A stretch of DNA of 23,909 nt from an uncultured Bacteroidota bacterium (GTDB taxonomy: Bacteria; Bacteroidota; Bacteroidia; Flavobacteriales; BACL11). The notes beneath the pieces are model-generated. The model was given only the letters and a program-made list of their open reading frames with translations. It was not told where the DNA came from and searched no databases. The translations under genes and the position numbers were made by a program. The DNA lies in NCBI GenBank assembly GCA_902514225.1, contig CABXPN010000016.1:1-23909 (forward strand), given 5' to 3'. Shown here one piece after another: positions 1,088-23,909 of the stretch (position 1 is the stretch's first letter; each line of letters opens with the position of its first letter).

Positions 1088-2260
1088 ATGAAAACAAACA
1101 AAATTAGAAAGACATTAGTAATAGGGATATTATTTTCAACAATAATAATTTCAAAAGCACAAAACACGGCAGAAAAAATAATCGGATCTAATCAGGGATT
1201 ACACATAGGAGGATATGGGCAGATAGATTATAATAAACAAATAAATGATGAATTAAATCATAATGCAACTTTAGATGTGCACCGCTTAGTAACTTTTTTT
1301 GGGTATAATTTTAATGAAAAAACATCATTTATATCGGAAATAGAGATGGAGCATGTAAAAGAGGTTTATGTAGAACAAGCATTTTTAAGTCATAGCATTA
1401 AGAATAATCTTAATGTAAACGCGGGGCTAATGCTCATTCCTATGGGGATACAAAATTTATATCACGAACCACCAACATTTAATGGAGTAGAAAGAACAAA
1501 TGTAGATAAATATATAGTACCAACTACCTGGAGAGAGATGGGTGTTTCTGTAAACGGTAGAATGATTGATAATACTTTATCGTATGAACTTATGTTAGTT
1601 AATGGTTTTAATGGATATGATGGTGCAGGTGTTTTTAGTGGAAGTAGCGGATTAAGAAGTGGGAGACAGAAAGCAGCTAAGTCGTATATGACCTCTCCTG
1701 ATTTTGCTTCTAGATTTTCATACTTAGGAATTCCTAATTTAAATTTAGGATTGTCTACATATTTAGGAGAGTCTGAATCATCCGCTTATAATGGATTAGA
1801 TTTATCAGATGAAAACGCTGTAATGTCTGCTGATTCTACTATTATAGGTATTAATATGATTGGAATTGATGGTAGATACCAACAAGGAGCCTTACAATTA
1901 AGAGGGCAATATGTTGTTGCTGATTTATCTAATACTAATCAATATAATATTTTCACAGGAAAAGACTTAGGAAGTAAAATGATGGGTTATTATGCTGAAG
2001 CTGGATATAATTTATTATCTAAAAAAGAAACAAATGATGAGTTGATAGCTTTTGTGAGGTATGAAAATTATAATACACATAAAGAGGTCGAAGACAACAT
2101 AACAATAAATTCTAATTATGATAGAAAGGATGTTATATTGGGATTAGGATGGAAATTAACAAAAGGAGCTATGTTTAAGGTAGATTATCAGATTAAATCT
2201 AATGGTAATGCTAATCCTAGAACAGATTATATCAATATAGGTACAGCAGTTTGGTTCTAA
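1088..2260 (+). CDS. Outer-membrane porin (beta-barrel), first gene of heme/iron locus
   Basis: The 390-residue protein starts with a Sec signal peptide (residues 1-24, cut near SKA-Q). The rest is rich in alternating amphipathic beta strands and ends in TAVWF; the terminal Phe is the usual BAM recognition residue of outer-membrane barrels. Early strands such as LHIGGYGQIDY and the VYVEQAFLSH and NAGLMLIPMGIQN segments resemble Bacteroidota porins of the phosphate-selective OprO/OprP-like type. It has no plug domain, so it is a passive channel rather than a TonB receptor. The next gene starts 3 bp after its stop, so the two are almost surely co-transcribed. The substrate cannot be read from the sequence; the locus suggests passage of a small ligand or metal complex linked to heme or iron acquisition. 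Confidence 0.8.
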   Translation: MKTNKIRKTLVIGILFSTIIISKAQNTAEKIIGSNQGLHIGGYGQIDYNKQINDELNHNATLDVHRLVTFFGYNFNEKTSFISEIEMEHVKEVYVEQAFLSHSIKNNLNVNAGLMLIPMGIQNLYHEPPTFNGVERTNVDKYIVPTTWREMGVSVNGRMIDNTLSYELMLVNGFNGYDGAGVFSGSSGLRSGRQKAAKSYMTSPDFASRFSYLGIPNLNLGLSTYLGESESSAYNGLDLSDENAVMSADSTIIGINMIGIDGRYQQGALQLRGQYVVADLSNTNQYNIFTGKDLGSKMMGYYAEAGYNLLSKKETNDELIAFVRYENYNTHKEVEDNITINSNYDRKDVILGLGWKLTKGAMFKVDYQIKSNGNANPRTDYINIGTAVWF

Positions 2261-2263
2261 ATT

Positions 2264-2788
2264 ATGGTTAATACTACTATTCATAAGATTAGCACTTTTT
2301 TTAGTAAAGAGATAATTGTTTTTTTAATTATCTCTTTACTTAATTTCTCTTTTATTAATTACGATTGGGAAAAGGATATAAAAAGTAGAGATAAGATTTA
2401 CAAAAATATCTCTACTATCTTTAATAGTAGTACCTATACAATTAATAGTACATCAGATAATTTTTATACTATTTTAGAATCCGAAAGAATAATAGGATAT
2501 CTTATTGTAAAATCTGAATTTTCAAGATATAAAAAGTTTGATTATTTTATTATTTATAATAATTTTGCAGAGATTTTGAAAGTTGAAATATTAAATTATA
2601 GAGAAAGCCACGGTTTCGAAATATGTAATAAAAGATGGCTCAAACAATTTATTGGGAATAATTCAGATTCTGAATTTGAATTTAATTCAAAGGTAGACGC
2701 AATCTCTGGAGCAACTATTTCTGTTAATAGTTTAAAAACTTCAATTTTTAAGAAAACACAAAATCTCAAGAGAATTATTAATGAATAA
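2264..2788 (+). CDS. Membrane-anchored FMN-binding domain protein with covalent flavinylation motif
   Basis: The 174-residue protein has one N-terminal hydrophobic segment (about residues 16-31) acting as a signal anchor, followed by an extracytoplasmic domain. Near the C-terminus, D145-A-I-S148-G-A-T151 fits the Dxx(S/T)GA(S/T) motif where the flavin transferase ApbE attaches FMN through a phosphoester bond in NqrC, RnfG and related proteins; T151 is the predicted acceptor. Upstream, RESHGFEICNKRWLKQF (about 113-129) resembles the ETPGLG...W...F segment of the FMN_bind domain. It is shorter than RnfG or NqrC and no other Rnf/Nqr subunit is present, so it is a stand-alone carrier. It lies 3 bp after the porin and overlaps the TonB receptor gene by 8 bp. 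A role in reducing ferric iron or heme outside the cytoplasm is inference from context. Confidence 0.78.
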   Translation: MVNTTIHKISTFFSKEIIVFLIISLLNFSFINYDWEKDIKSRDKIYKNISTIFNSSTYTINSTSDNFYTILESERIIGYLIVKSEFSRYKKFDYFIIYNNFAEILKVEILNYRESHGFEICNKRWLKQFIGNNSDSEFEFNSKVDAISGATISVNSLKTSIFKKTQNLKRIINE

Positions 2789-4829
2789 ATTAATATTAGT
2801 TTTTTTTTGTCCAATAATTTGTTTTTCTCAAACAGAAACAGATACTACTTTGATGTTATCTGAATTAGAAGAAATAATAATTTCAGCAACAATGTCTGAA
2901 AGAGATTTGGACAAATTACCTATTCCTACTACAATAATTTCTGAAAAAGAGATTATGTTATCTAATGCAAGTAAATTATATGATGTAATAAACATACAAA
3001 CAGGAATTATAAGCGTGCCAACAAAAACAGGTACTGAAGGATTACAAATGCAAGGATTAGACGCTTCATATATAACTATACTTGTTGACGGATTTCCAAT
3101 TATTGGAAGATCTTTCGGAGCATTGGATTTAAATAGAATATCAGTAACAGACATAGAAAGAATTGAAATTATTAAAGGAGCATCTTCAAGTTTGTATGGG
3201 TCTAATGCATTAGGTGGAGTTGTGAATCTTATCAGTAAAAAGCAAATTAATGATGGTAATAAAATTAATTTATCATTAAAATACGCTTCCTATAATACAA
3301 TTAATCCAAGTTTGATATATCAATACAAAAAAGGTTCGTTTCAAATATCAAACTCTATAGATTATTATAATACGGATGGTTATGATTTAATAAAATCAGA
3401 TTTGCTTAGTACTGTTAATCCTTATTCTAATTTTACCTTTAATACAAAGTTAAGATATGGACTTTCTGATAAAGTTATATTAAATACAAATGCACGATAT
3501 TATAATCATGAGCAAAAAAATACTGCAGAACATGAAGGTTCTCTATTAGAAGGAAAAACTAATATTAAAGAGTGGAACCTTGGAACATTTGTAAAATATT
3601 TGATGAACTCTAATTTATTTCATCAGGCTGAAATTTATAAAACTAATTATAGAGCAGATGAATATTTAAATACTCAAGATGATAATTATTTGGATCACAC
3701 ATTATTAAAATCTGAAATAAAAACTCATTTCACTTATAAAAAACTAAATAGTATTTTAGGTTTTGGTATGAAAAAAGAAGAATTATCCAGAACAAATTTT
3801 TCAAATAATCCAAAGCAAGATTTAAATTTTATTTACGGACAATTAGATGCAACCGCATTTAATAAATTTAATATTATACTTGGAAGCAGATATGATAATT
3901 ACACAGATTATACTCCAGTAATTTCTAATAAATTTGCTGTAGGATTTCCTTTAAATAATAAAATAAACATAAATAGCTCAATAGGCACGGGTTTTAAAAT
4001 ACCTGATTTCAGACAAAGGTATTTCGATTTTACTAACTCAACCATTGGATATAGTGTTTTTGGAAGGGATGTTGCTTTTGACAGATTAGAATCTATGCAA
4101 AATGATGGAATGATACAGGAAATTTTTATTCCATTTTCAGAACTAAGTTCTCCTTTAAAGTCAGAAACTTCATTAAATATTAATATTGGAGTAAAATATA
4201 ATCCAACAAAAAAAATTATTTTTAATGCAAACTTATTTAAGAATAAAATACAGAATTTGATTGAATGGCAGTCAGTGGCTAAATCAATAAATAACACAAA
4301 TATTTATAGTTACTTTAATATTAATGAGGTTGAAACAAAGGGAGTAGAGTTTAATACAACTTATAAACCATCTATTAATTATGAAATAAAGATGGGATAT
4401 CAATTACTGTATGCTTATGATACAGAAATTAGAACAAGATTTGAAACTGAGGATATATATGTAAATGATATAAATGGAGTAAGCTTCAAACTTAATAAAG
4501 AGGATTATTTTGGATTATTTAATAGATCTAGACATATGGGAAATATCAAAATATTATATCATATAAATAAAAGATTAGATGTAAATAGTATTATTACTTA
4601 TAGAAGTAAATACGCTCTAAATGATGTCAATGGAAATGATTTATTAGACATATATGATGAATTTGTTAAAGGATATACTTTATGTGATTTAGGATTTACT
4701 TATTCCCTAAATCCATTAAGGTCAATTCAAATTGGATCAAAGAATATTTTTGGGATTACAAATCCAGAATATATCAGTAACATATCGGGACGAGTATATT
4801 ATATAAATATTAATTTAAATCTTAAATAA
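2781..4829 (+). CDS. TonB-dependent outer-membrane receptor, probably for heme (HmuR-like)
   Basis: The 682-residue protein has a signal peptide (residues 1-16, cut before QTETD) and a TonB-box-like EEIIISAT near residue 30. The plug domain carries GLQMQGLDASYITILVDG and the classic DIERIEIIKGASSSLYG segment (residues 124-140), with GGVVNLIS following. The remainder is a 22-strand-type barrel, with FKIPDFRQRYFDF and LKSETSLNINIG in the place where heme receptors carry the FRAP/NPxL-type region. It lacks the N-terminal carboxypeptidase-like domain of SusC proteins, so a siderophore or heme receptor is more likely than a glycan receptor. Heme as ligand is inferred mainly from the HmuY-family lipoprotein two genes downstream, since HmuY and HmuR work as a pair in Porphyromonas. 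The start overlaps the FMN-binding gene by 8 bp, implying coupled translation. Confidence 0.88.
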   Translation: MNKLILVFFCPIICFSQTETDTTLMLSELEEIIISATMSERDLDKLPIPTTIISEKEIMLSNASKLYDVINIQTGIISVPTKTGTEGLQMQGLDASYITILVDGFPIIGRSFGALDLNRISVTDIERIEIIKGASSSLYGSNALGGVVNLISKKQINDGNKINLSLKYASYNTINPSLIYQYKKGSFQISNSIDYYNTDGYDLIKSDLLSTVNPYSNFTFNTKLRYGLSDKVILNTNARYYNHEQKNTAEHEGSLLEGKTNIKEWNLGTFVKYLMNSNLFHQAEIYKTNYRADEYLNTQDDNYLDHTLLKSEIKTHFTYKKLNSILGFGMKKEELSRTNFSNNPKQDLNFIYGQLDATAFNKFNIILGSRYDNYTDYTPVISNKFAVGFPLNNKININSSIGTGFKIPDFRQRYFDFTNSTIGYSVFGRDVAFDRLESMQNDGMIQEIFIPFSELSSPLKSETSLNINIGVKYNPTKKIIFNANLFKNKIQNLIEWQSVAKSINNTNIYSYFNINEVETKGVEFNTTYKPSINYEIKMGYQLLYAYDTEIRTRFETEDIYVNDINGVSFKLNKEDYFGLFNRSRHMGNIKILYHINKRLDVNSIITYRSKYALNDVNGNDLLDIYDEFVKGYTLCDLGFTYSLNPLRSIQIGSKNIFGITNPEYISNISGRVYYININLNLK

Positions 4830-4876
4830 AGCTCAAATAATTAATAATAAAAGACAATTGATTAAGTAGACTTATT

Positions 4877-4884
4877 TACTTTAG
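4877..4884 (+). promoter_or_regulatory. Weak -7 box-like site before the repeat lipoprotein
   Basis: TACTTTAG differs at one position from TAnnTTTG, and a TTG lies 16 bp upstream at 4858-4860. Immediately before it is an imperfect palindrome, TAAGT-AG-ACTTA (4863-4874). The 102-bp gap after the receptor gene shows no terminator, so the downstream lipoproteins may use both this promoter and read-through. Confidence 0.3.
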
Positions 4885-4902
4885 CCAACTCTTAAAAAAC
4901 AA

Positions 4903-4958
4903 AAATTAAAACAATTAAAACAATTAAAACAATGAAAACAATGAAAACAATGAAAACA
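4903..4958 (+). repeat. 9-bp tandem repeat spanning the start codon of the repeat lipoprotein
   Basis: Units of the form ACAATTAAA in the leader continue as ACAATGAAA across the start, so that three in-frame ATG codons occur at 4932, 4941 and 4950 and the protein begins MKTMKTMKT. The unit is a multiple of three, so a gain or loss of copies would not change frame. Confidence 0.85.
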
Positions 4959-5459
4959 ATTTTACCAGTATGCATGATAACACTTCTTTTTTTCGCATGT
5001 ACAAAAAGTGATACCCCAGCACCTTTAGACTGCATGGGCATTGAGAACGGACTAGCGGTTGCTGATGAGTGTGGGAATTGTCATCAATCATATATATATG
5101 ATTTTGGACCTAATTCTAATCATATTCCAACTTATATAGATGATACTACTGGCTTAGAATTAGGAGCAACTGAAATGATTGTTATAGCTGGATCTCCTGA
5201 AGATATAGCTTCCAATCCAAATTGGAATGCTAGCTGTACAGACTGTATGGGAATCTTAAATGGACTAGCAGCTGTTGATGATAGTAGTTGTTGTCATCAA
5301 TCATATATATATGATGTTGGCCCTAATTCTAATCATATTCCAACCTATATAAATGATACTACTGGATTAGTTTTAGGAGCAACTGAAATGATTTTTATAG
5401 CTGGATCTCCTGAAGATATAGCTTCCAATCCAAATTGGAATACTGGTTGTACAGAATAA
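4932..5459 (+). CDS. Cys-rich lipoprotein made of two near-identical 71-residue repeats
   Basis: The 175-residue product has a lipoprotein signal ending FFAC (lipidated Cys 23). It continues into two tandem modules, residues 33-103 and 104-174. Each begins DCMG...NGLA...D, passes through CHQSYIYD, HIPTYI, LGATEMI and AGSPEDIASNPNWN, and ends in Cys-Thr. Each module has four Cys. In module 1 the Cys at 47 and 50 with His 51 form CGNCH, a CxxCH match; in module 2 this is SSCCH, so that spacing is lost. The DC.G..NG.A..D.CG.C opening resembles Cys-rich repeats common in secreted Bacteroidota proteins. I do not know its function. Its stop is 1 bp before the HmuY-family gene, so the two are co-translated. 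A surface role beside the hemophore, or disulfide or metal binding, is inference. The most upstream ATG is given as start, but 4941 and 4950 are equally possible. Confidence 0.75.
   Translation: MKTMKTMKTILPVCMITLLFFACTKSDTPAPLDCMGIENGLAVADECGNCHQSYIYDFGPNSNHIPTYIDDTTGLELGATEMIVIAGSPEDIASNPNWNASCTDCMGILNGLAAVDDSSCCHQSYIYDVGPNSNHIPTYINDTTGLVLGATEMIFIAGSPEDIASNPNWNTGCTE
5028..5453 (+). repeat. Two tandem 213-bp direct repeats inside the lipoprotein gene
   Basis: Copy 1 is 5028-5240 and copy 2 is 5241-5453, an exact 71-codon period. The last 162 bp of the unit differ at about 11 sites by hand count, while the first 51 bp are far more diverged. The silent positions are conserved too, which points to recent duplication or gene conversion. 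Confidence 0.9.
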
Positions 5460-5460
5460 T

Positions 5461-6078
5461 ATGAAACACATAACTTCATTACTTCTATTTAGTCTCTTGT
5501 TCTTTTCTTCTTGTGAGAAAAGTAGTCCTAAGTTAATAGATGAGGATGTGATTACCTTTGTTGAGTTAAATGCAAGCCAGTATGATGTTAATATTCTTGA
5601 TTCCTTAGTGACTGGTAAGTTTGAGAAGTTTAGTTTTTCAGAAGGAGATACAGTAATTCATGATAATTGGGATGTAGCATTTAGTGGAACTACAATTATT
5701 GTTAATGGAGGAGATCGTTATAGCGTTAACGAGCCAGAAAGAACAGGTAATGCAGCAGTTTATATCGCTACTGGAGTTATGTCAGATATTAGAACTGTAG
5801 ATTTATCTAAATTAGAACAGGACAATACATCAGGTCCCGCTATAGTTGATGATCTTGGGATATCAGGTAATGGTTGGGCTTCTTATGATATGAGTACTCA
5901 TATAATATCTCCTATTGCTGGAAGGATATTAGTTTTTAGGACACATGATAATAAATATGCAAAAATGGAGATTCTCTATTTCTATGACAGCCCAGACCCA
6001 CAACCTTCAGAAGGAGATTATGGTGGATTTTACACATTTAATTATGTGTATCAATCTGATGGAGGAATTACTTTTTAA
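5461..6078 (+). CDS. hmuY: HmuY-family heme-binding lipoprotein (hemophore)
   Basis: The 205-residue protein has a lipoprotein signal ending FFSSC (Cys 18), placing it on an outer-membrane leaflet or the cell surface. The body shows the HmuY family pattern: HDNWDVAFSGTTIIVNGG (residues 67-84), a variable TG..AVYIATGVMSDI region, GNGWASYDMSTHIISP (about 136-151), then ILVFRTHDNKYAKMEILYFY (156-175) and a final beta segment. In Porphyromonas HmuY binds heme through two His, while homologues in other Bacteroidota use Met. Here M107, M144 and H147 sit in the two ligand-bearing regions and are the candidate axial ligands, but I cannot fix the alignment by eye. It would take heme from host or environmental hemoproteins and pass it to the TonB receptor encoded upstream. 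It starts 1 bp after the repeat lipoprotein and is followed by a strong terminator, so it ends the operon. Confidence 0.85.
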   Translation: MKHITSLLLFSLLFFSSCEKSSPKLIDEDVITFVELNASQYDVNILDSLVTGKFEKFSFSEGDTVIHDNWDVAFSGTTIIVNGGDRYSVNEPERTGNAAVYIATGVMSDIRTVDLSKLEQDNTSGPAIVDDLGISGNGWASYDMSTHIISPIAGRILVFRTHDNKYAKMEILYFYDSPDPQPSEGDYGGFYTFNYVYQSDGGITF

Positions 6079-6140: not shown

Positions 6141-6344
6141 ATGGAAAAAGATTATTTCTCAAATTTAAGTCTTGATGAAAAAAATATTCTAAAAAATAAA
6201 GAAACAGAATCACCTTTTAGTGGAGAATATAATAAAACCCAAAATATAAAGATGTTTGCAATAGAAACACAAATCATACAGAATTAATTGAAATTCATTT
6301 TTACGAAAAGATTATTAATTGAAACGTTTTTAGATATATTTTAA
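6141..6344 (+). pseudogene. Decayed, internally deleted copy of msrBA
   Basis: Three blocks match the intact msrBA encoded at 7260-8105, in order. From the ATG at 6141 to 6233, MEKDYFSNLS...KETESPFSGEYN matches the MsrB N-terminus (MNKKVFFSNL...GTEPPFSGEYN). From 6236 to 6319, in another frame, NPKYKDVCNRNTNHTELIEI and HFYEKIIN match the MsrA segment NPTYDEVCKGDTNHAEVIEI and YFDEEFIS. From 6321 to 6341, after a one-base shift, ETFLDIF matches YERLLDIF, then a stop. The region between blocks one and two, about 396 bp in the intact gene, is gone, removing the zinc site, the MsrB catalytic Cys and the MsrA GCFW motif. Most of the C-terminal MsrA part is also missing. The remnant keeps a perfect TAnnTTTG box at 6128-6135, which suggests the ancestral copy had its own promoter. 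Confidence 0.85.
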
Positions 6345-6377: not shown

Positions 6378-7247
6378 TTGAATATTTTAACTTTTGACAT
6401 AGAGGATTGGTATCATATATTACATAAATACCCTTCAAATATTCTAAATAAATGGAGCTCATATGAAGATAGAGTAAACGTAGGCACCGATAAGATTCTG
6501 GAGGTATTGTTAGAGAATAATGTAAAAGCAACCTTTTTTGTTTTAGGGTATATAGCTCAAAAACACCCACATATTATAAAAAAGATACATGATTATGGGT
6601 TTGAGATTGGAGCTCACTCTGACATGCATAAAATAGCTTTTCAGCAAACTCCTGATGAGTTTAAATCAGATTTGCAAACATGTATTAATAGGTTAGAAGA
6701 TATAACATCTGAAAAGGTATTATCATATAGGGCTCCAGGATTTTCAGTTAAAAAAGAAAATGTTTGGGTATTTGATATTCTTCATGAGTTAGGTATTCAG
6801 TATGACGCTTCAATATTTCCAGCAGTAAGAGAAGATGGAGGGTTTATTAATTTTAAAGAATCAGGACCGGTGAAATTAAAATTTAATAATAATGAGATTA
6901 AGGAATTCCCAATGAGTACTAATAGTTTTTTAGGGAATCGTTTTACTACAACTGGAGGAGGTTATTTCCGTTTCTTCCCTTATAGTTTAATACACAGACT
7001 TATTCAGAACACTGACTATACTATGACTTATTTTCATCCTAGAGATTTTGATCCAGATCAACCTATGTTAGATGGATTATCTTTAAAAAGGAAATTTAAG
7101 TCTTATTATAATTTATCTGGGGCATACCCAAAATTTAAGAAATTAATTAGAGATTTTGACTTTATAGATATTAGACAGGCAGATAAACAAATTAACTGGG
7201 ATAAAGTTCCAATTGTAAATATTGATAAAGAAGGGAATTGTCTTTAA
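6378..7247 (+). CDS. Polysaccharide deacetylase (NodB homology domain, DUF3473-like C-terminus)
   Basis: The 289-residue protein carries the NodB motifs in order. These are TFDIEDW (D7 and D10, catalytic base and metal ligand), ATFFVLGYIA (51-60), GAHSDMH (metal ligands H80 and H84 in HxxxH form), YRAPGFS (R118), and YFHPRDFDPDQP (catalytic His 220). The C-terminal segment GLSLKRKFKSYYNLSGAYPK is typical of the exopolysaccharide-associated subgroup. Such enzymes remove N- or O-acetyl groups from glycans. There is no signal peptide, so the substrate is probably a cytoplasmic lipid-linked sugar or an envelope precursor. The start is TTG at 6378, because the TFDIEDW block begins only five codons later. 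It is 12 bp before msrBA, likely one transcript. No glycosyltransferase cluster surrounds it, so its pathway is unknown. Confidence 0.87.
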   Translation: MNILTFDIEDWYHILHKYPSNILNKWSSYEDRVNVGTDKILEVLLENNVKATFFVLGYIAQKHPHIIKKIHDYGFEIGAHSDMHKIAFQQTPDEFKSDLQTCINRLEDITSEKVLSYRAPGFSVKKENVWVFDILHELGIQYDASIFPAVREDGGFINFKESGPVKLKFNNNEIKEFPMSTNSFLGNRFTTTGGGYFRFFPYSLIHRLIQNTDYTMTYFHPRDFDPDQPMLDGLSLKRKFKSYYNLSGAYPKFKKLIRDFDFIDIRQADKQINWDKVPIVNIDKEGNCL

Positions 7248-7259
7248 TAGTTTTAAAAT

Positions 7260-8105
7260 ATGAATAAAAAAGTTTTTTTTTCAAATTTAAATAAACAAGA
7301 GTCAGAAATAATAGTAAATAAAGGAACAGAACCTCCTTTTTCTGGAGAATACAATAATTTCTTTGAAGCTGGAGTTTTTATTTGTAGAGCTTGTAAAGCT
7401 CCGCTTTATGAATCAAAAGCTAAGTTTAATTCTGGGTGTGGTTGGCCTTCTTTTGATGATGAGATTGAAGGATCAATAAAAAGATATGAAGATTTAAGCG
7501 GTGGTAGAGTAAGAACAGAAATTTGTTGCAGTAAATGTGATGGACATTTGGGGCATATTTTTCATGGAGAACAAATAACAGAGAAGGACACAAGGCATTG
7601 TGTTAATTCATTAAGCATACAATTTAAAGAGTATGAAAATTTAAGCTGTGCCTATTTTGGAGCGGGTTGTTTCTGGACTGTAGAGAAACTATTTAGTGAA
7701 ACTAAAGGTGTTTATCAATCTCAGGTTGGATATATGGGTGGAAACACAAAAAATCCAACTTATGATGAAGTTTGTAAGGGAGATACAAATCATGCAGAAG
7801 TAATAGAAATATATTTTGATGAAGAATTTATATCATATGAGAGACTCCTTGATATTTTTTGGAATAATCATAATCCAACTACTTTAAATAGGCAGGGGGT
7901 CGACACAGGAACTCAATATCGTTCGGTAATTTTTCACACGTCTAATCCACAGAAAATAACTGCTGAAAATTCAGTTAAAACACAACAAGAAAAATGGAAG
8001 AAATCAATTAAAACACAAATTATTAAATCTTCAGAATTTTACAGAGCTGAAGAGTATCACCAAAATTACCTGAATAAAAATACTCTAGGAAGTTGTAGTA
8101 TTTAG
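7260..8105 (+). CDS. msrBA: Bifunctional peptide-methionine sulfoxide reductase MsrB-MsrA
   Basis: The 281-residue protein is a fusion with MsrB first. The MsrB half has PPFSGEYN, zinc pairs C42-xx-C45 and C90-xx-C93, SGCGWPSF (C60), and the RHC-NS catalytic motif with C114. The MsrA half begins near residue 130 with YFGAGCFWTVEK (catalytic C137), then GYMGGNTKNPTYDEVC, DTGTQYRSVIF and EEYHQNYL, and ends with C279 as the likely resolving Cys. Together they reduce both R- and S-methionine sulfoxide in proteins, using thioredoxin. It lacks a signal peptide, so it acts in the cytoplasm. It follows the deacetylase by 12 bp. Its stop overlaps the stop of the convergent histidine kinase gene by 4 bp with no terminator between. 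A decayed second copy lies at 6141-6344. Confidence 0.96.
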   Translation: MNKKVFFSNLNKQESEIIVNKGTEPPFSGEYNNFFEAGVFICRACKAPLYESKAKFNSGCGWPSFDDEIEGSIKRYEDLSGGRVRTEICCSKCDGHLGHIFHGEQITEKDTRHCVNSLSIQFKEYENLSCAYFGAGCFWTVEKLFSETKGVYQSQVGYMGGNTKNPTYDEVCKGDTNHAEVIEIYFDEEFISYERLLDIFWNNHNPTTLNRQGVDTGTQYRSVIFHTSNPQKITAENSVKTQQEKWKKSIKTQIIKSSEFYRAEEYHQNYLNKNTLGSCSI

Positions 8106-9403: not shown

Positions 9404-11899
9404 TTATTCTTCATCTTCCCACTCTAATTCAATACCAGTTTCCTCTTCTTCTGTTTTGTTCTCTTCAGAACTATCTTTTTTCGTACTATTTAAAATGTTT
9501 TCTTCAATAATTTCTTTTACCTCTTTCGTTTCTTTTATTATTTCTTTAAAAATATCTTGTTTAATTTTTATTTTATCTAACGATACTTTAGGGTCATCAA
9601 CATGTCCTTCCATGTTTAATTGAATAGTGGTTTTCCCACTTTTATTTATGCTATAATTTTCCTTATCAATATTACTTTTATTTTTTGATTTTTTACTCAA
9701 AACATCTGACAATAATAATCTTACTTTATAGTCCATAATATTATCAAAACTATGGGTCCCGGATATAAACACACTCATTGCAGATGAGTTAATATCCATC
9801 TTTGGAATAATTATTTTTTCATTTTCTATCCTGATTTTATTTTCTAATGTAGCAAATTTTACATTTTTTAGTTCTTCCAAACTAACATAATCTGAAAGTT
9901 CGTACATTGGTTCAAAATCAATTAATTCACCATTCTCTATCTTTAAAGTTGAATTCATATTTAATGATGGAGAATAAAATTTATAATTTTTATCCCACAT
10001 AGATTGCAAATACATTGTAGCAGAACCAATTCCTTTTATGTTTTTATTTGTTATAAATGTTTGCTTGAAATTATTAAAACTACTAAACCCTTTTGCAATA
10101 TCAATTTTAGTAAATTCCCAATTTGATTTTAATATTAAATCATGAAGTTTATTTTCGAAATAATCAAAACTTACATTGATTTTTCCATCCAAAGCATCCA
10201 TTTTCAGTTTTTCAGAAAATAATTTCAGTTTTTTATTGTCGTAAATTACTTCACCACTAATAGATGAAGCAGAAAAACCAGAATAAATAAGATGATCTAT
10301 ATTCAAATCTAATTCACAGTTAATCCAATTTGGTAAAACACTTATAAATTCTCCTTTCTCAGTATCATCATTTAATTCCGTTATTTTAAATAATTCCTTA
10401 AAATTGATTTTCTTACTTTTCATACTTCCTTTCACGGAAATCTCTTCTTTTTGGTCAAGTATGTATAAAATTAAGTCTGTTATCTCTCCATCAAAATCCA
10501 TTTCCGAATCACTGATATTTATAACATCATCAATTTTCACCTTATGATCTTTTATTTCCCAATTCATCTTTTTTGATGAAAAGTTTAGATCGGACTTTTT
10601 ATAATTAAAGAAGACATTTTTAAAATATAGGTTTGATGTATGCTCTGATTTTCTAATGTATTCTTTCATTAATTCATCAAAACTGAAGTTACCTTTATAA
10701 TTAATCTGGCCTTTTACCGAACCTTTGATATTATGAAAAGGAGAGTCATCAATAAAATTATTTAATTCGGACAACTCCCAAGAAGAATATATATCTGCAT
10801 TCAGGTAATAATTGTCCAAATTGGAAAATATAAAATCACCTTTTAAAGATCCATTATTTTTTATAGAGTTAAAGTTAGAAAAACGAAATTCTGAACTTTT
10901 AAAATTTCTATTTTCCCCATTATTAAAATTTCCTTCAGATGATATTTTAGAAAGTTTGAAATCTTGAGAATTACTTTTATAAAAAGATTCAGTTAACTTA
11001 AAATCCACATTACAAAAAGGGTATTCTGATAATCCATCATTTTCAATTAAAATATCCGCTTTTATCTTTCCTTTTATTTCATGTTCTTTAAACAGATATT
11101 TGAACTTTTCAGGCATAGTAGTTAATATCTCATCTAACTCAGTTTCCGTCTTGATAGTTAGTTTCCATTTTTCATTATTTTTATTGAAAAGAACATTGTC
11201 AAATGTTATATTATCAATATTTAGTATTGATGACTTTAGATCTATACTATTTTCTGAAATGGTAATTTCGGATGAAGCAAACACATCTTTTTCATTAATA
11301 TAATCATCCTCAGAAATTATTAAATTATTCATGAAAAGATCCCCTTCTAAAGTTATAATATGATCCCCTTCATTGTTAGAATAGGATAATAGAACATTTT
11401 CTATATTCGATTTTATCAAATAATCATTTAACTTATCTGTATATCTTAACTTACAATCAGTGAACAAAATTCTATCTAAATTTAAGTCAGAATCTGTTTT
11501 TGTTGTGTCTTTTAAAATATTAAAATTCGGAATACCTTTCTCATCATATTTAACATTTATTTCCCCTTTCTGAACTTCCATATTCTTTACAGAATAATCT
11601 CCAGAAATTAAACTAAGAACATTTAGTTTGATAATAGAATTTTTGGAAAAGAGTAATGTGTCAGAATTTGAATCCTGAATAAAAATATCTGAGAAAGTTA
11701 CAGAAGCATAAGGAAAGTTTGCAAAAACAGAAAATTCTATATCTCCAACAGAAATTCCAGTTTTCAGTTTTGAATTTACCTTGTTTAAAACAATCCCTTC
11801 AATTTTTTCAGCAAATAAAAATGTAAAACCTAGTCCGAATAGACCTAGAACTAAAATTAATACAGAAAAATATTTTAAAATTTTTTTAAAGGACTTCAT
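9404..11899 (-). CDS. AsmA-family protein (large envelope protein)
   Basis: The 831-residue protein has one N-terminal transmembrane helix (about residues 10-29) followed by a long periplasmic region. It opens with VNSKLKTGISVGDIEFSVFA and FPYASVTFSDIFIQD, the usual Bacteroidota AsmA N-terminus. The C-terminal part, with LEELKNVKFATLENKIRIEN and SAMSVFISGTHSFDNIMDYK, is the AsmA_2-like region that binds to the outer-membrane side. It ends in a coiled, strongly acidic tail rich in Glu. AsmA relatives (TamB, YhdP) form long beta-grooved bridges that move phospholipid to the outer membrane, and that is the likely role here, by family only. The histidine kinase follows 6 bp later, and no clear promoter box is seen in the 62 bp upstream. 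Confidence 0.85.
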   Translation of the reverse strand: MKSFKKILKYFSVLILVLGLFGLGFTFLFAEKIEGIVLNKVNSKLKTGISVGDIEFSVFANFPYASVTFSDIFIQDSNSDTLLFSKNSIIKLNVLSLISGDYSVKNMEVQKGEINVKYDEKGIPNFNILKDTTKTDSDLNLDRILFTDCKLRYTDKLNDYLIKSNIENVLLSYSNNEGDHIITLEGDLFMNNLIISEDDYINEKDVFASSEITISENSIDLKSSILNIDNITFDNVLFNKNNEKWKLTIKTETELDEILTTMPEKFKYLFKEHEIKGKIKADILIENDGLSEYPFCNVDFKLTESFYKSNSQDFKLSKISSEGNFNNGENRNFKSSEFRFSNFNSIKNNGSLKGDFIFSNLDNYYLNADIYSSWELSELNNFIDDSPFHNIKGSVKGQINYKGNFSFDELMKEYIRKSEHTSNLYFKNVFFNYKKSDLNFSSKKMNWEIKDHKVKIDDVINISDSEMDFDGEITDLILYILDQKEEISVKGSMKSKKINFKELFKITELNDDTEKGEFISVLPNWINCELDLNIDHLIYSGFSASSISGEVIYDNKKLKLFSEKLKMDALDGKINVSFDYFENKLHDLILKSNWEFTKIDIAKGFSSFNNFKQTFITNKNIKGIGSATMYLQSMWDKNYKFYSPSLNMNSTLKIENGELIDFEPMYELSDYVSLEELKNVKFATLENKIRIENEKIIIPKMDINSSAMSVFISGTHSFDNIMDYKVRLLLSDVLSKKSKNKSNIDKENYSINKSGKTTIQLNMEGHVDDPKVSLDKIKIKQDIFKEIIKETKEVKEIIEENILNSTKKDSSEENKTEEEETGIELEWEDEE

Positions 11900-20766: not shown

Positions 20767-20792
20767 GATAGTATCCTTTTCTAAAAACTATC
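20767..20792 (-). terminator. Weak hairpin at the end of the amidohydrolase operon
   Basis: GATAGT (20767-20772) and ACTATC (20787-20792) can pair, with T-rich and A-rich inner segments. The right arm covers the stop codon. No U tract follows on the minus strand, so termination is uncertain. GATAGTAT is also directly repeated at 20754 and 20767. Confidence 0.3.
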
Positions 20793-22053
20793 TTCCCTTA
20801 TATTTATTAAAAAGCTCTTTTTGGTGGTTGTTTAAATCTACAGGATTTCCTTTAATAAAAGCTTGTTCTACATTACTTGTTCTCATATCTAATGCGTCCC
20901 CAGAACTAATAAAAAAGGTAGCTTCCTTTCCCCTTTCTATACTTCCAATATTTTCATTAATACCAAGTATTTTGGCAGTATTTAGTGTAATAGTAGAAAT
21001 AGCTTTTTCCATTTCCAAACCGTATGCAACAGAAGTACCAGCAGTAAATGATAGGTTTCTACTTCCCATAGCTTCCATATCTCCGTTATAAGCCAAACAG
21101 AACAAGATTCCCTCTTCTTCTAGTTGTTTTGGCAATACATAAAACTGGTCGATAGGAGAGTCTTCATTTCTAGGTAAAGAATGAACTCTTTCTAATATAA
21201 TTGGAATATTTTCTTCTTTTAATATCCTTAAAGCACCAAGAGATCCTTTCCCTCCAACTATTACCACATTTTGTATCCCGAAATCTTTAAACATTCTCAC
21301 AGATTCTTGAATATCTTTAGCGTAATCTGCATGTACATATAAGTTTTTACTTCCGTCAAATAAACCTTTTGTAGATTCTAATTCTATATCCATTTCTACA
21401 GAACTTTCAAAATAAGATTTAGCTATTTCAAAATAGTTTTTAATTTCATTTACAGAGTTATTATAATTTTTATTTTCTGATGTGCTACCAGGCTCTGCCC
21501 ACCAACCTGAAGTATGAAAAGAAGAAGGCCAATTTAAATGTATACCATCATCAGTTTTTATCTGAGCGTCTTCCCAATTCCAACCATCTAAATACATTAC
21601 AGAAGAAGATCCGGAGATAACTCCTCCTCTCGGAGTTGCTTGTGTAATTAGTACTCCATTACTTCTAACCGTTTTCAGAACTTTTGAGTCGGTGTTAAAT
21701 GCAATTAACGATCTTACATTCGGATTAAACCTACCAACTTCACTATAATCTTCAGAGGCTTTTACCGCATCAATTTCCGTAATACCAAGTGTTGTATTTG
21801 GAGATATAAATGAAGGGTAAATATGTTTACCGTAAATACGGATAATGGTATCAAAAGCTGTTGGGTCAATCCTTATTCGGCTAGCATCTGCTACCAAATC
21901 AAACTTACCATCTTTTACAACAATTATTGAGTTTCCAATTTTTTCTCCGTTTCCAAGATGTGCTATTCCACCCATAAACAAAGTAGTTTTTTGGGCAGAT
22001 ATATTTATTGATAGTAAAGATAATGCAAGTATGTAAAATATATTTTTATTCAT
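20788..22053 (-). CDS. Secreted amidohydrolase-superfamily protein lacking the HxH metal motif
   Basis: From the ATG at 22053 the protein is 421 residues with a signal peptide (MNKNIFYILALSLLSINISA, cut before QKTTLF). A 22-codon longer start at 22119 is possible, but the signal peptide and the 8-bp overlap with the upstream gene favour the shorter one. The composite N-terminal beta domain (GEKIGNSIIVVKDGKFDLVA) and the ending LNTAKILGINENIGSIERGK are those of imidazolonepropionase-like amidohydrolases. Where active members have HxH after strand 1, this protein reads YPSFISPNTTLGITEIDA, without the His pair. VHADYAKD and AYNGDMEAMGSRN remain. This degenerate second member of an amidohydrolase pair recurs in Bacteroidota as far as I recall. 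It may be a non-catalytic partner or use an altered metal site. The substrate is unknown. Confidence 0.85.
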   Translation of the reverse strand: MNKNIFYILALSLLSINISAQKTTLFMGGIAHLGNGEKIGNSIIVVKDGKFDLVADASRIRIDPTAFDTIIRIYGKHIYPSFISPNTTLGITEIDAVKASEDYSEVGRFNPNVRSLIAFNTDSKVLKTVRSNGVLITQATPRGGVISGSSSVMYLDGWNWEDAQIKTDDGIHLNWPSSFHTSGWWAEPGSTSENKNYNNSVNEIKNYFEIAKSYFESSVEMDIELESTKGLFDGSKNLYVHADYAKDIQESVRMFKDFGIQNVVIVGGKGSLGALRILKEENIPIILERVHSLPRNEDSPIDQFYVLPKQLEEEGILFCLAYNGDMEAMGSRNLSFTAGTSVAYGLEMEKAISTITLNTAKILGINENIGSIERGKEATFFISSGDALDMRTSNVEQAFIKGNPVDLNNHQKELFNKYKGR

Positions 22054-23909
22054 AATTCTCAATAGTTTCGCAATGGTAATGTTTCTCAATTGTAGGAACA
22101 ACTTTTTGTTTTTCTTCATCAGTATTTCCGTTTACCATCTTATTTATAATCCTCATTTTTTCTTTTAAATCTCTTTTCATCAACTCTAAGTTCTTAGTAA
22201 TATCAAAGAGTAATTTTCCGTCCACATAGGTTTGTTCTACCTTACTATAAACTGAAAGAGGATTCCCATTCCAAATAACAATATCCGCATCTTTTCCAAT
22301 TTTAATACTTCCCATTCTGTCTTCCAGATGTAATAAAATTGCTGGGTTTAGTGTTACCATTTTCCAAGCGTCTTCTTCTGATGTCCCTCCATATTTTACC
22401 GCTTTAGCCGCTTCCTGATTTAATCTTCTTCCCATTTCTGCATCATCCGAATTAATAGCTGTAACAATTCCTTTATTATTTAAAATTGTTGCGTTGTATG
22501 GTATAGCTTCATTTACCTCAAACTTATACGCCCACCAATCCGAGAAAGTACTAGCTCCTGCACCATGTTTTTTTAGTTTATTAGCTACTTTATATCCTTC
22601 CAAAATATGTGTGAATGTATTTATTGTAAAACCCATAGAGTCGGCTACATGCATCAACATATTTATTTCTGACTGAACATAAGAATGACATGTAATAAAC
22701 CTTTCAGAATTTAAAATTTCTACAAGTGCATCTAACTCTAAATCTGCTCTAGGAGGAATTGTTTTTCTCTTTTGTGATGCAGATAAAGAATTATATTCAT
22801 CCCATTGTTTTTGATATAATTTTGCTCTGTAAAATGCATCATAAAAAACTTGTTCTACTCCCATTCGGGTTTGAGGAAATCGTGTGTTAAACATTCCCCA
22901 GTTGGATTGTTTTACATTTTCACCTAGTGCAAATTTTATAAACCCATCCGCACCTTCAATTTTCATCTGTTCAGCTGTACTTCCCCATCTTAGTTTTATA
23001 AGTGCTGATTGACCTCCAATCGGATTTGCGGAACCATGTAACAGTTGTGATGCCGTAACTCCACCAGAAAGTTGCCTATAAATATTATGATCATTCGGAT
23101 TAATTACATCCCCAATTTTTACCTCTGACGTTACCGCTTGACTTCCTTCATTCACCCCTCTACTTATTGCGATATGAGAGTGCTCATCAATTATCCCGCA
23201 AGTGATATGTTTTCCTGTTGCATCAATAAACTGAACTCTAATTTTAGTTTTTGGCCAAAGTTCTTCTTTTTTTAGATTAGAGCCAATTGCAATTATTTTT
23301 CCATCCTGAATTGCCACATCTGTATTTAATAAAATCCCTTCATTTTCATTTGTCCAAACTGTTGCATTTGTAAATATAGTAGGAACAGAAATTATACTGT
23401 AAGCGTTTCCGTATGCTTTATTCGGATAATAAATTGAAGGAATAATTGTGTCGTAATTTGCAGAAAACAATTTTGTTTCATCTGACTGTAAAGAATCTCT
23501 TGTCATTGTAAACTCAAAATTTTCTCCATCCAGATTCTGATATGTACCTTTAAAAATACCATCCGAAAACAAAGCGGTTCCTCTTACAGAAATATCTTTA
23601 GTGTTAAAGACAATATTATTTTCATTAGTTTCTAATTCATATTTTATTGAAGTAGAATCAGAAGTAATTTCTTCCATTTTTAATTTAGAGATTGTTCCTG
23701 AAATAGAAATTTGTTTTTTTTCATTTTCAGTAGAGAATGTGTAGAACCCTCTAAGATCTATTTCTGTTTTTTCGTTGATAATATTTCTAATTCCATTTGT
23801 CCAATTTTCATAAATTACACCATCTTCAAATATATCTGAACTACAAATAATAAAGTTTGCTTTTTTTCCTCTTTCTAAAGTTCCTAATCTGTTTTCTTCT
23901 TCTACTAAA
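22046..23909 (-). CDS. Amidohydrolase-superfamily protein, 5' end beyond the window
   Basis: The frame stays open from the right edge (first full codon at 23908) to the stop at 22046, about 621 residues. An ATG at 23677 is internal: upstream in-frame sequence includes NRLGTLERGKKANFIICSSD, the end of an earlier amidohydrolase-like domain, and INEKTEIDLRGFYTFS. The protein is therefore a larger, probably two-domain enzyme. The second domain has the metal-binding HxH in GIIDEHSHIA (codons at about 23174-23182), QLSGGVTASQLLHGSANPIG, the conserved FITCHSYVQSEINMLMHVAD and FTHILEGYKVANKL, and the Asp ligand in TAINSDDAEMGRRLNQEAAK. It ends with LEDRMGSIKIGKDADIVIWN. The metal site appears complete, so this domain is likely catalytic. 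It probably is exported like its downstream partner, which it overlaps by 8 bp. The substrate (peptide, cyclic amide or similar) is unknown. Confidence 0.85.
   Translation of the reverse strand, partial: LVEEENRLGTLERGKKANFIICSSDIFEDGVIYENWTNGIRNIINEKTEIDLRGFYTFSTENEKKQISISGTISKLKMEEITSDSTSIKYELETNENNIVFNTKDISVRGTALFSDGIFKGTYQNLDGENFEFTMTRDSLQSDETKLFSANYDTIIPSIYYPNKAYGNAYSIISVPTIFTNATVWTNENEGILLNTDVAIQDGKIIAIGSNLKKEELWPKTKIRVQFIDATGKHITCGIIDEHSHIAISRGVNEGSQAVTSEVKIGDVINPNDHNIYRQLSGGVTASQLLHGSANPIGGQSALIKLRWGSTAEQMKIEGADGFIKFALGENVKQSNWGMFNTRFPQTRMGVEQVFYDAFYRAKLYQKQWDEYNSLSASQKRKTIPPRADLELDALVEILNSERFITCHSYVQSEINMLMHVADSMGFTINTFTHILEGYKVANKLKKHGAGASTFSDWWAYKFEVNEAIPYNATILNNKGIVTAINSDDAEMGRRLNQEAAKAVKYGGTSEEDAWKMVTLNPAILLHLEDRMGSIKIGKDADIVIWNGNPLSVYSKVEQTYVDGKLLFDITKNLELMKRDLKEKMRIINKMVNGNTDEEKQKVVPTIEKHYHCETIENYE

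Follow-up and report, generated by a model that had tools for sequence, protein, structure and literature searches.

The DNA analysed here, called the window throughout, is the 23,909-nt contig CABXPN010000016.1 of the assembly GCA_902514225.1, from an uncultured marine Bacteroidota bacterium (Flavobacteriales, BACL11). It carries five genes in a row, encoding a porin-like protein, an FMN_bind protein, a TonB-dependent receptor (TBDR), a repeat lipoprotein (REP) and a HmuY-family lipoprotein (Table 1), which the first-pass annotation of this DNA had described as a heme acquisition locus with a flavinylated electron-transfer protein. The open reading frames (ORFs) are separated, in order, by a 3-bp gap, an 8-bp overlap of FMN_bind and TBDR, a 102-bp gap and a 1-bp gap, so that the tight spacing reported for three of the four junctions is borne out. 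A Pfam scan of the 17 other ORFs of the window revealed neither hmuS nor an ABC transporter gene, as the same annotation had stated, and no ApbE; no DoxX-family gene or PepSY membrane reductase was recorded among the scanned window genes.

Table 1. Genes of the five-gene locus in the window
Gene product	Position	Strand	Basis
Porin-like outer-membrane protein, FMN_bind partner	1088..2260	+	ORF; adjoins FMN_bind in 79/80 loci
FMN_bind protein	2264..2788	+	PF04205, 31.3 bits; predicted covalent-flavin site SGATIS
TonB-dependent receptor (TBDR), HfpR-like by arrangement	2781..4829	+	PF00593, PF07715
Repeat lipoprotein (REP), two Cys-rich repeats	4932..5459	+	ORF; relatives in 12 other loci
HmuY-family lipoprotein, hemophore-like	5461..6078	+	PF14064, 25.6 bits; predicted HmuY fold

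Relatives of the FMN_bind protein were collected with a query of 20 aligned FMN_bind relatives; 471 genome-contig stretches encode one, and the best 80 of these 471 (L-numbered loci, the closest of which are uncultured Flavobacteriales metagenome-assembled genomes) underlie all counts over the related loci given below. The window protein exceeds the PF04205 cut-off of 22 bits, carries an SGAT-type motif and displays an N-terminal hydrophobic stretch, read by eye; the earlier placement of a covalent-flavin-type protein between porin and receptor thus holds, the attachment of flavin being predicted. The flavinylation motif GA[ST]x[ST] is present in all 102 called FMN_bind relatives and its stricter form [ST]GA[ST]x[ST] in 79 of them, and a quick tree of 102 proteins groups the window protein with the porin-associated type, next to L001. 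The protein shares the FMN_bind domain and GAT-type motif with RnfG and NqrC, from which it differs in scoring far below the RnfG cut-offs and in lying outside any Rnf or Nqr operon.

The porin gene lies directly upstream of FMN_bind in all related loci except L027, which starts at a contig end, and an adjacency found in 79 of 80 loci is far from chance. No Pfam family matched the window porin at an E value of 1, and the name is a weak one, based on a sub-threshold Porin_4 match of the relative at L011 and on its look. Two histidines of the porin (H89, H126) are invariant and a third (H331) is 97% conserved among 89 aligned relatives, which suggests a bound metal or cofactor. The next gene after FMN_bind in 70 of the 80 loci encodes a four-helix membrane protein of about 166 aa, the HxH protein, in which the residues H77 and H79 never vary among 20 aligned sequences; these histidines make it a putative b-type cytochrome. 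Locus genes were called as longest ORFs, and the HxH gene of L051 and L075, which escaped calling, was recovered by reading frames. A known cytochrome fold was considered for the HxH protein and gained no clear support: the predicted structure (pLDDT 84.5) shows nothing beyond a simple bundle of four helices and had no Foldseek match at E 0.001, and VIA-align returned only rows flagged by the tool as common for bundles. A sequence-based search found no PDB relative of the FMN_bind or the HxH family. Among the genomes of related loci, 15 of the 16 searched contain ApbE, which was not found in G002, and in seven genomes (G003, G004, G005, G007, G009, G011 and G015) a second, longer FMN_bind gene, likely nqrC, lies about 3-4 kb from ApbE on one contig.

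The receptor matches PF00593 (104.3 bits) and PF07715 (76.5 bits) well above cut-off, and its best NCBIfam matches, to B12, hemoglobin/transferrin and heme receptor models, are all sub-threshold. The HmuY-like protein scores just below the PF14064 cut-off of 27 bits, which the relatives at L006, L042 and L069 pass and that at L003 fails; the precomputed Pfam annotation of the protein database lists PF14064 for the window protein, and its predicted structure backs the HmuY fold. The most widespread histidines or methionines in its 81 homologs, beyond the start methionine, are H147 (58%) and H162 (56%). The repeat lipoprotein has a lipoprotein-like N-terminus and two repeats, belongs to no reliable Pfam family and was not called in L006 and L008. 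Its identification as a c-type cytochrome was discarded, since the single CxxCH of the window protein is matched by at least one in eight of 12 relatives and by none in four, and the motif is therefore not a conserved heme site.

The arrangement of receptor and HmuY-like gene resembles the Hfp system of Flavobacterium psychrophilum, of which PMC9331221 reports that hfpR, hfpY and a DoxX gene share a transcript when iron is scarce, that HfpY binds heme 1:1 and that HfpR and HfpY serve heme use. In both, a TBDR gene is followed by a HmuY-like gene, and neither the hfp operon, as far as described there, nor the window contains hmuS or ABC genes. A DoxX-like gene stands beside HmuY or between HmuY and receptor in Flavobacteriaceae relatives, as in L092 (TBDR-DoxX-like-HmuY, DoxX under cut-off) and L042 (DoxX over cut-off). 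The window differs in having no DoxX or DUF6607 gene and in possessing the repeat lipoprotein and the upstream porin-FMN_bind pair, and is likened to Hfp by arrangement. With the Hmu system of Porphyromonas gingivalis and other Bacteroidota it shares a HmuY fold beside a TonB-dependent receptor; it differs by the lack of the chelatase-like HmuS and transport genes that stand beside hmuR, by ligands H134/H166 not conserved in the window protein, and by a gene order with the receptor first.

The two modules are linked in several loci of the window's clade. TBDR(-REP)-HmuY lies between FMN_bind and msrAB in L003, L004, L006 and L008, the last two without the repeat lipoprotein, and L002 has the cassette in the same position with an AraC-type gene before the receptor. 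This AraC-family gene (L002 2316-3218, minus strand), between FMN_bind and the receptor, is a possible ligand-responsive regulator. Among 246 genomes drawn from the order and scored for both families, FMN_bind was found in 25, a HmuY-like protein in 36 and both in 12; with at most 14 or 12 candidates scored per genome, absences in these surveys are soft. FMN_bind accompanies a strong HmuY match in 11 of 27 genomes, where about 2.7 would be expected, versus 14 of the 219 others (Fisher 6e-6, kinship uncorrected; this and the other enrichment figures treat related genomes as independent).

The surroundings of the heme module were surveyed in 88 fetched loci, of which 14 were chosen for FMN_bind; 74 have a called HmuY (L106 and L107 are without a called anchor) and 72 of these also a receptor. 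From the 36 genomes with a HmuY match, 26 were fetched and six entered via L002-L006 and L008, G051, G108, G176 and G184 (weak) being left out. A second HmuY survey gave matches in 53 genomes, of which 48 were fetched as a Flavobacteriaceae set, G018 and G207 had been fetched earlier and G266 and G341 were left out, as were the second HmuY matches in G018, G296 and G326; G014 corresponds to L064, outside the 72. Neighbours were counted within 9 kb, and each of DoxX, DUF2271, ankyrin and PepSY was assigned by its resemblance to a single sequence taken from L042 or L095. A DUF6607 gene is near in 45 of the 72 loci, and these 45 have DoxX nearby in 19, PepSY in 14 (13 with a called DUF2271) and FMN_bind in six. 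DoxX and PepSY are never together (Fisher 6e-5), nor are FMN_bind and PepSY (p 0.16), and DoxX is present in all six FMN_bind cases (p 0.003). Where DUF2271 and PepSY lie beside DUF6607, they are regularly joined by an ankyrin-repeat gene (L095 13438-17649, plus strand, and 13 other loci).

In the 48 Flavobacteriaceae genomes with HmuY, eight of 24 strong FMN_bind matches (0.13 expected) and 13 of 14 long PepSY-flavodoxin reductases (open frame 728-751 aa; 0.07 expected) lie within 9 kb of HmuY. FMN_bind occurs in 21 of these genomes and long PepSY in 14, with an overlap of two (Fisher 0.011). The eight DUF6607-adjacent FMN_bind proteins among the 102 form one clade (support 100) apart from the porin type; the heme module thus came beside FMN_bind at least twice, and PepSY-DUF2271 beside it is a third solution. 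The types with DoxX, PepSY and FMN_bind are intermixed in the receptor tree (79 rows, quick LG+G4, short receptors of L094, L116 and L137 excluded). Linked and unlinked receptors are likewise intermixed, and the notion of a single-event descent of all FMN-linked arrangements was dropped for this reason; L090 ends at the receptor, so that FMN linkage cannot be judged there. This recurrent redox pairing is the best support for a functional tie between the heme module and flavin genes, and the most surprising general finding is that DoxX(+FMN_bind) and PepSY-DUF2271 appear to stand in for each other next to one kind of heme receptor.

Such pairings are touched on in the literature. Putative genes for electron transfer in the hfp region are mentioned in PMC9331221 itself. 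PMC8238504 records TonB genes in 231 flavinylation clusters of the PepSY-like kind and puts forward iron reduction as their role, and PMC7190382 and PMC12004947 connect PepSY and DUF2271 with the reduction of ferric iron and with receptors that respond to iron. The window resembles these PepSY-DUF2271 systems in that an extracytosolic flavinylated substrate adjoins a TonB-type receptor, and differs in having FMN_bind in place of DUF2271 and no PepSY, although relatives of its heme module do use PepSY-DUF2271. Word starts 'porin' and 'Bacteroidetes' are absent from the text of PMC8238504, and 'TonB' from that of PMC11334425. Searches of the open literature on HmuY, FMN_bind, DUF6607, flavinylation and TonB did not meet a link of HmuY with FMN_bind.

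These observations may be interpreted as the joining of two modules, in which a flavin carrier serves the reduction of heme or another ferric ligand outside the cytoplasm; we assign this reading a probability of about 45%. The TBDR, repeat lipoprotein and HmuY-like protein would form a surface system of the HfpR/HfpY type for catching heme, or the iron of heme proteins, and moving it across the outer membrane, and the porin and FMN_bind protein would represent a membrane-anchored periplasmic covalent-flavin carrier with its partner porin. An ApbE would load the flavin protein and the respiratory chain would supply its electrons, Na+-NQR being the remaining candidate donor in the window's clade, as suggested by the second FMN_bind gene near ApbE in the seven genomes. 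Electrons may then pass from the reduced flavin protein to ferric heme, or to a different ferric ligand, within the periplasm or at the receptor itself, and this reduction may promote the hand-over or release of iron. The reductive role proposed in the first-pass annotation is partly supported: it gains from the hfpR-hfpY-like arrangement and from the recurrence of flavin or redox neighbours through unrelated parts, and loses from a linkage that is confined to few loci and absent in six of the 12 genomes with both proteins. In relatives, these heme genes are found with different genes for electron carriers, which suggests that extracytoplasmic electrons may aid iron uptake.

Several observations weigh against this reading. 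A receptor follows the porin-FMN pair only in the window and five of the 80 loci (L002, L003, L004, L006, L008); the window FMN_bind protein belongs to the porin-associated type, which mostly lacks an adjacent receptor. The 12 genomes comprise five with linkage (G002, G003, G004, G006, G008), one with a remnant (G005) and six without linkage (G001, G009, G010, G027, G074 and G220; 616 kb apart on one contig in G027), G007 has FMN_bind and gave no HmuY match, and some unlinked receptors reach 70% identity with that of the window. L005 retains the porin-FMN pair and has lost the receptor, the repeat lipoprotein and most of HmuY, a C-terminal remnant of which (10470-10640) directly follows FMN_bind and precedes an msrAB interrupted by the contig end. 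The porin-FMN pair persists where the receptor lies at another site or has been lost, and so must serve some purpose by itself. The exclusion of DoxX and PepSY is a consistent tendency that is not significant once kinship is counted, as in eight independent pairs differing in DoxX, PepSY changed in the opposite way 4.6 times on average and in the same way never (median p 0.0625); L064, outside the 72 loci, has PepSY near HmuY together with a porin-FMN pair within the same 9 kb, so that FMN_bind and PepSY are not strictly exclusive. PepSY and DUF6607 were found in none of the 14 searched genomes of the window clade and near kin, DoxX is absent or weak in most genomes of the clade, and in F. psychrophilum hemoglobin use stayed normal after transposon insertion into the DoxX gene (PMC9331221). 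The HxH gene is missing after FMN_bind in the window, L001-L008, L010 and L012, and a genome-wide search of the ten genomes of these loci gave no full-length HxH protein; 35-residue matches at E about 1e-3 occur in G004 and G006, and G011, G027, G013 and G015 each contain an HxH protein. Deletion of hmuY in F. columnare caused no growth defect, which weighs against a general need for HmuY (PMC9618737).

A rival reading is juxtaposition alone: the porin-FMN_bind pair, joined in other parts of the phylum by the HxH protein, would be a general redox module of the envelope with a separate task, and in the window's clade TBDR-REP-HmuY would simply have ended up between this module and msrAB, the transcript being perhaps common and the function not. 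Such an account is possible, if somewhat doubtful. It agrees with the porin-FMN pair having no receptor beside it in most of the 80 loci, a TBDR lying within 1.5 kb of an FMN gene in seven, two of which (L069, L080) owe this to a DUF6607-type paralog; with msrAB directly after the pair in L001, L010 and L012 and after the HmuY remnant in L005; and with a second shared site of the cassette in close relatives, the cassette of unlinked genomes having other neighbours that are common to several of them. Against it speak the facts that a different FMN_bind clade and PepSY-DUF2271 became linked to this heme module independently, that FMN_bind and HmuY co-occur in excess in the 246 genomes and that FMN_bind and TBDR overlap by 8 bp in the window.

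Alternatively, the ligand may be another iron complex, such as a siderophore or a degradation product, with the HmuY-like protein as a divergent binder and the flavin protein reducing that ferric complex, which we consider unlikely. Of the HmuY ligands H134 and H166, the former is unaligned and the latter aligns with M144, common to 9% of the 81 homologs, which speaks against heme as the ligand; H585 (94%) is the sole widespread window histidine in the receptor alignment of 80 rows, and the NCBIfam heme-receptor scores are far below cut-off. However, heme ligands vary within the HmuY family (PMC6200708), so that their non-conservation is not decisive for membership, and HfpY, with very low similarity to other HmuY proteins, and HfpR, with only partial heme-receptor motifs, nevertheless serve heme use (PMC9331221). 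PMC12106395 describes HmuY proteins whose heme binding involves no iron coordination, and reports that heme binding by those with Met ligands improves under reducing conditions, which favours the reductive reading.

A wider proposal, which must be regarded as highly speculative, holds that electrons cross the Bacteroidota envelope through a conduit of porin, covalent-flavin protein and HxH protein, comparable to porin-cytochrome conduits but based on flavin. Heme iron would be reduced in the periplasm or on the cell surface by this conduit or by the interchangeable DoxX and PepSY-DUF2271 sets, whichever the heme and iron receptors had recruited. The route by which Bacteroidota take iron out of heme is not settled. 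If HmuY-type heme receptors regularly use exchangeable flavin or membrane-redox modules, extracytoplasmic reductive heme handling becomes a testable general step, and the porin-FMN pair would be a candidate envelope electron route, offering knock-out targets in cultured marine Flavobacteriaceae.

A Bacteroidota promoter motif occurs at chance level (44 versus 41.5 expected). Downstream of HmuY, a 48-aa ORF (6141-6287, plus strand) precedes a polysaccharide deacetylase gene (6378-7247, plus strand); it resembles the first residues of MsrAB and, by eye, looks like a truncated copy of the start of msrAB, an intact copy of which lies at 7260-8105. In L003 a similar deacetylase gene (6730-7599) stands before a radical-SAM (HemW-like) gene, indicating a local rearrangement relative to the window. 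Two overlapping amidohydrolase-family genes lie in tandem on the minus strand of the window at 20788-22119 and 22046-23677.

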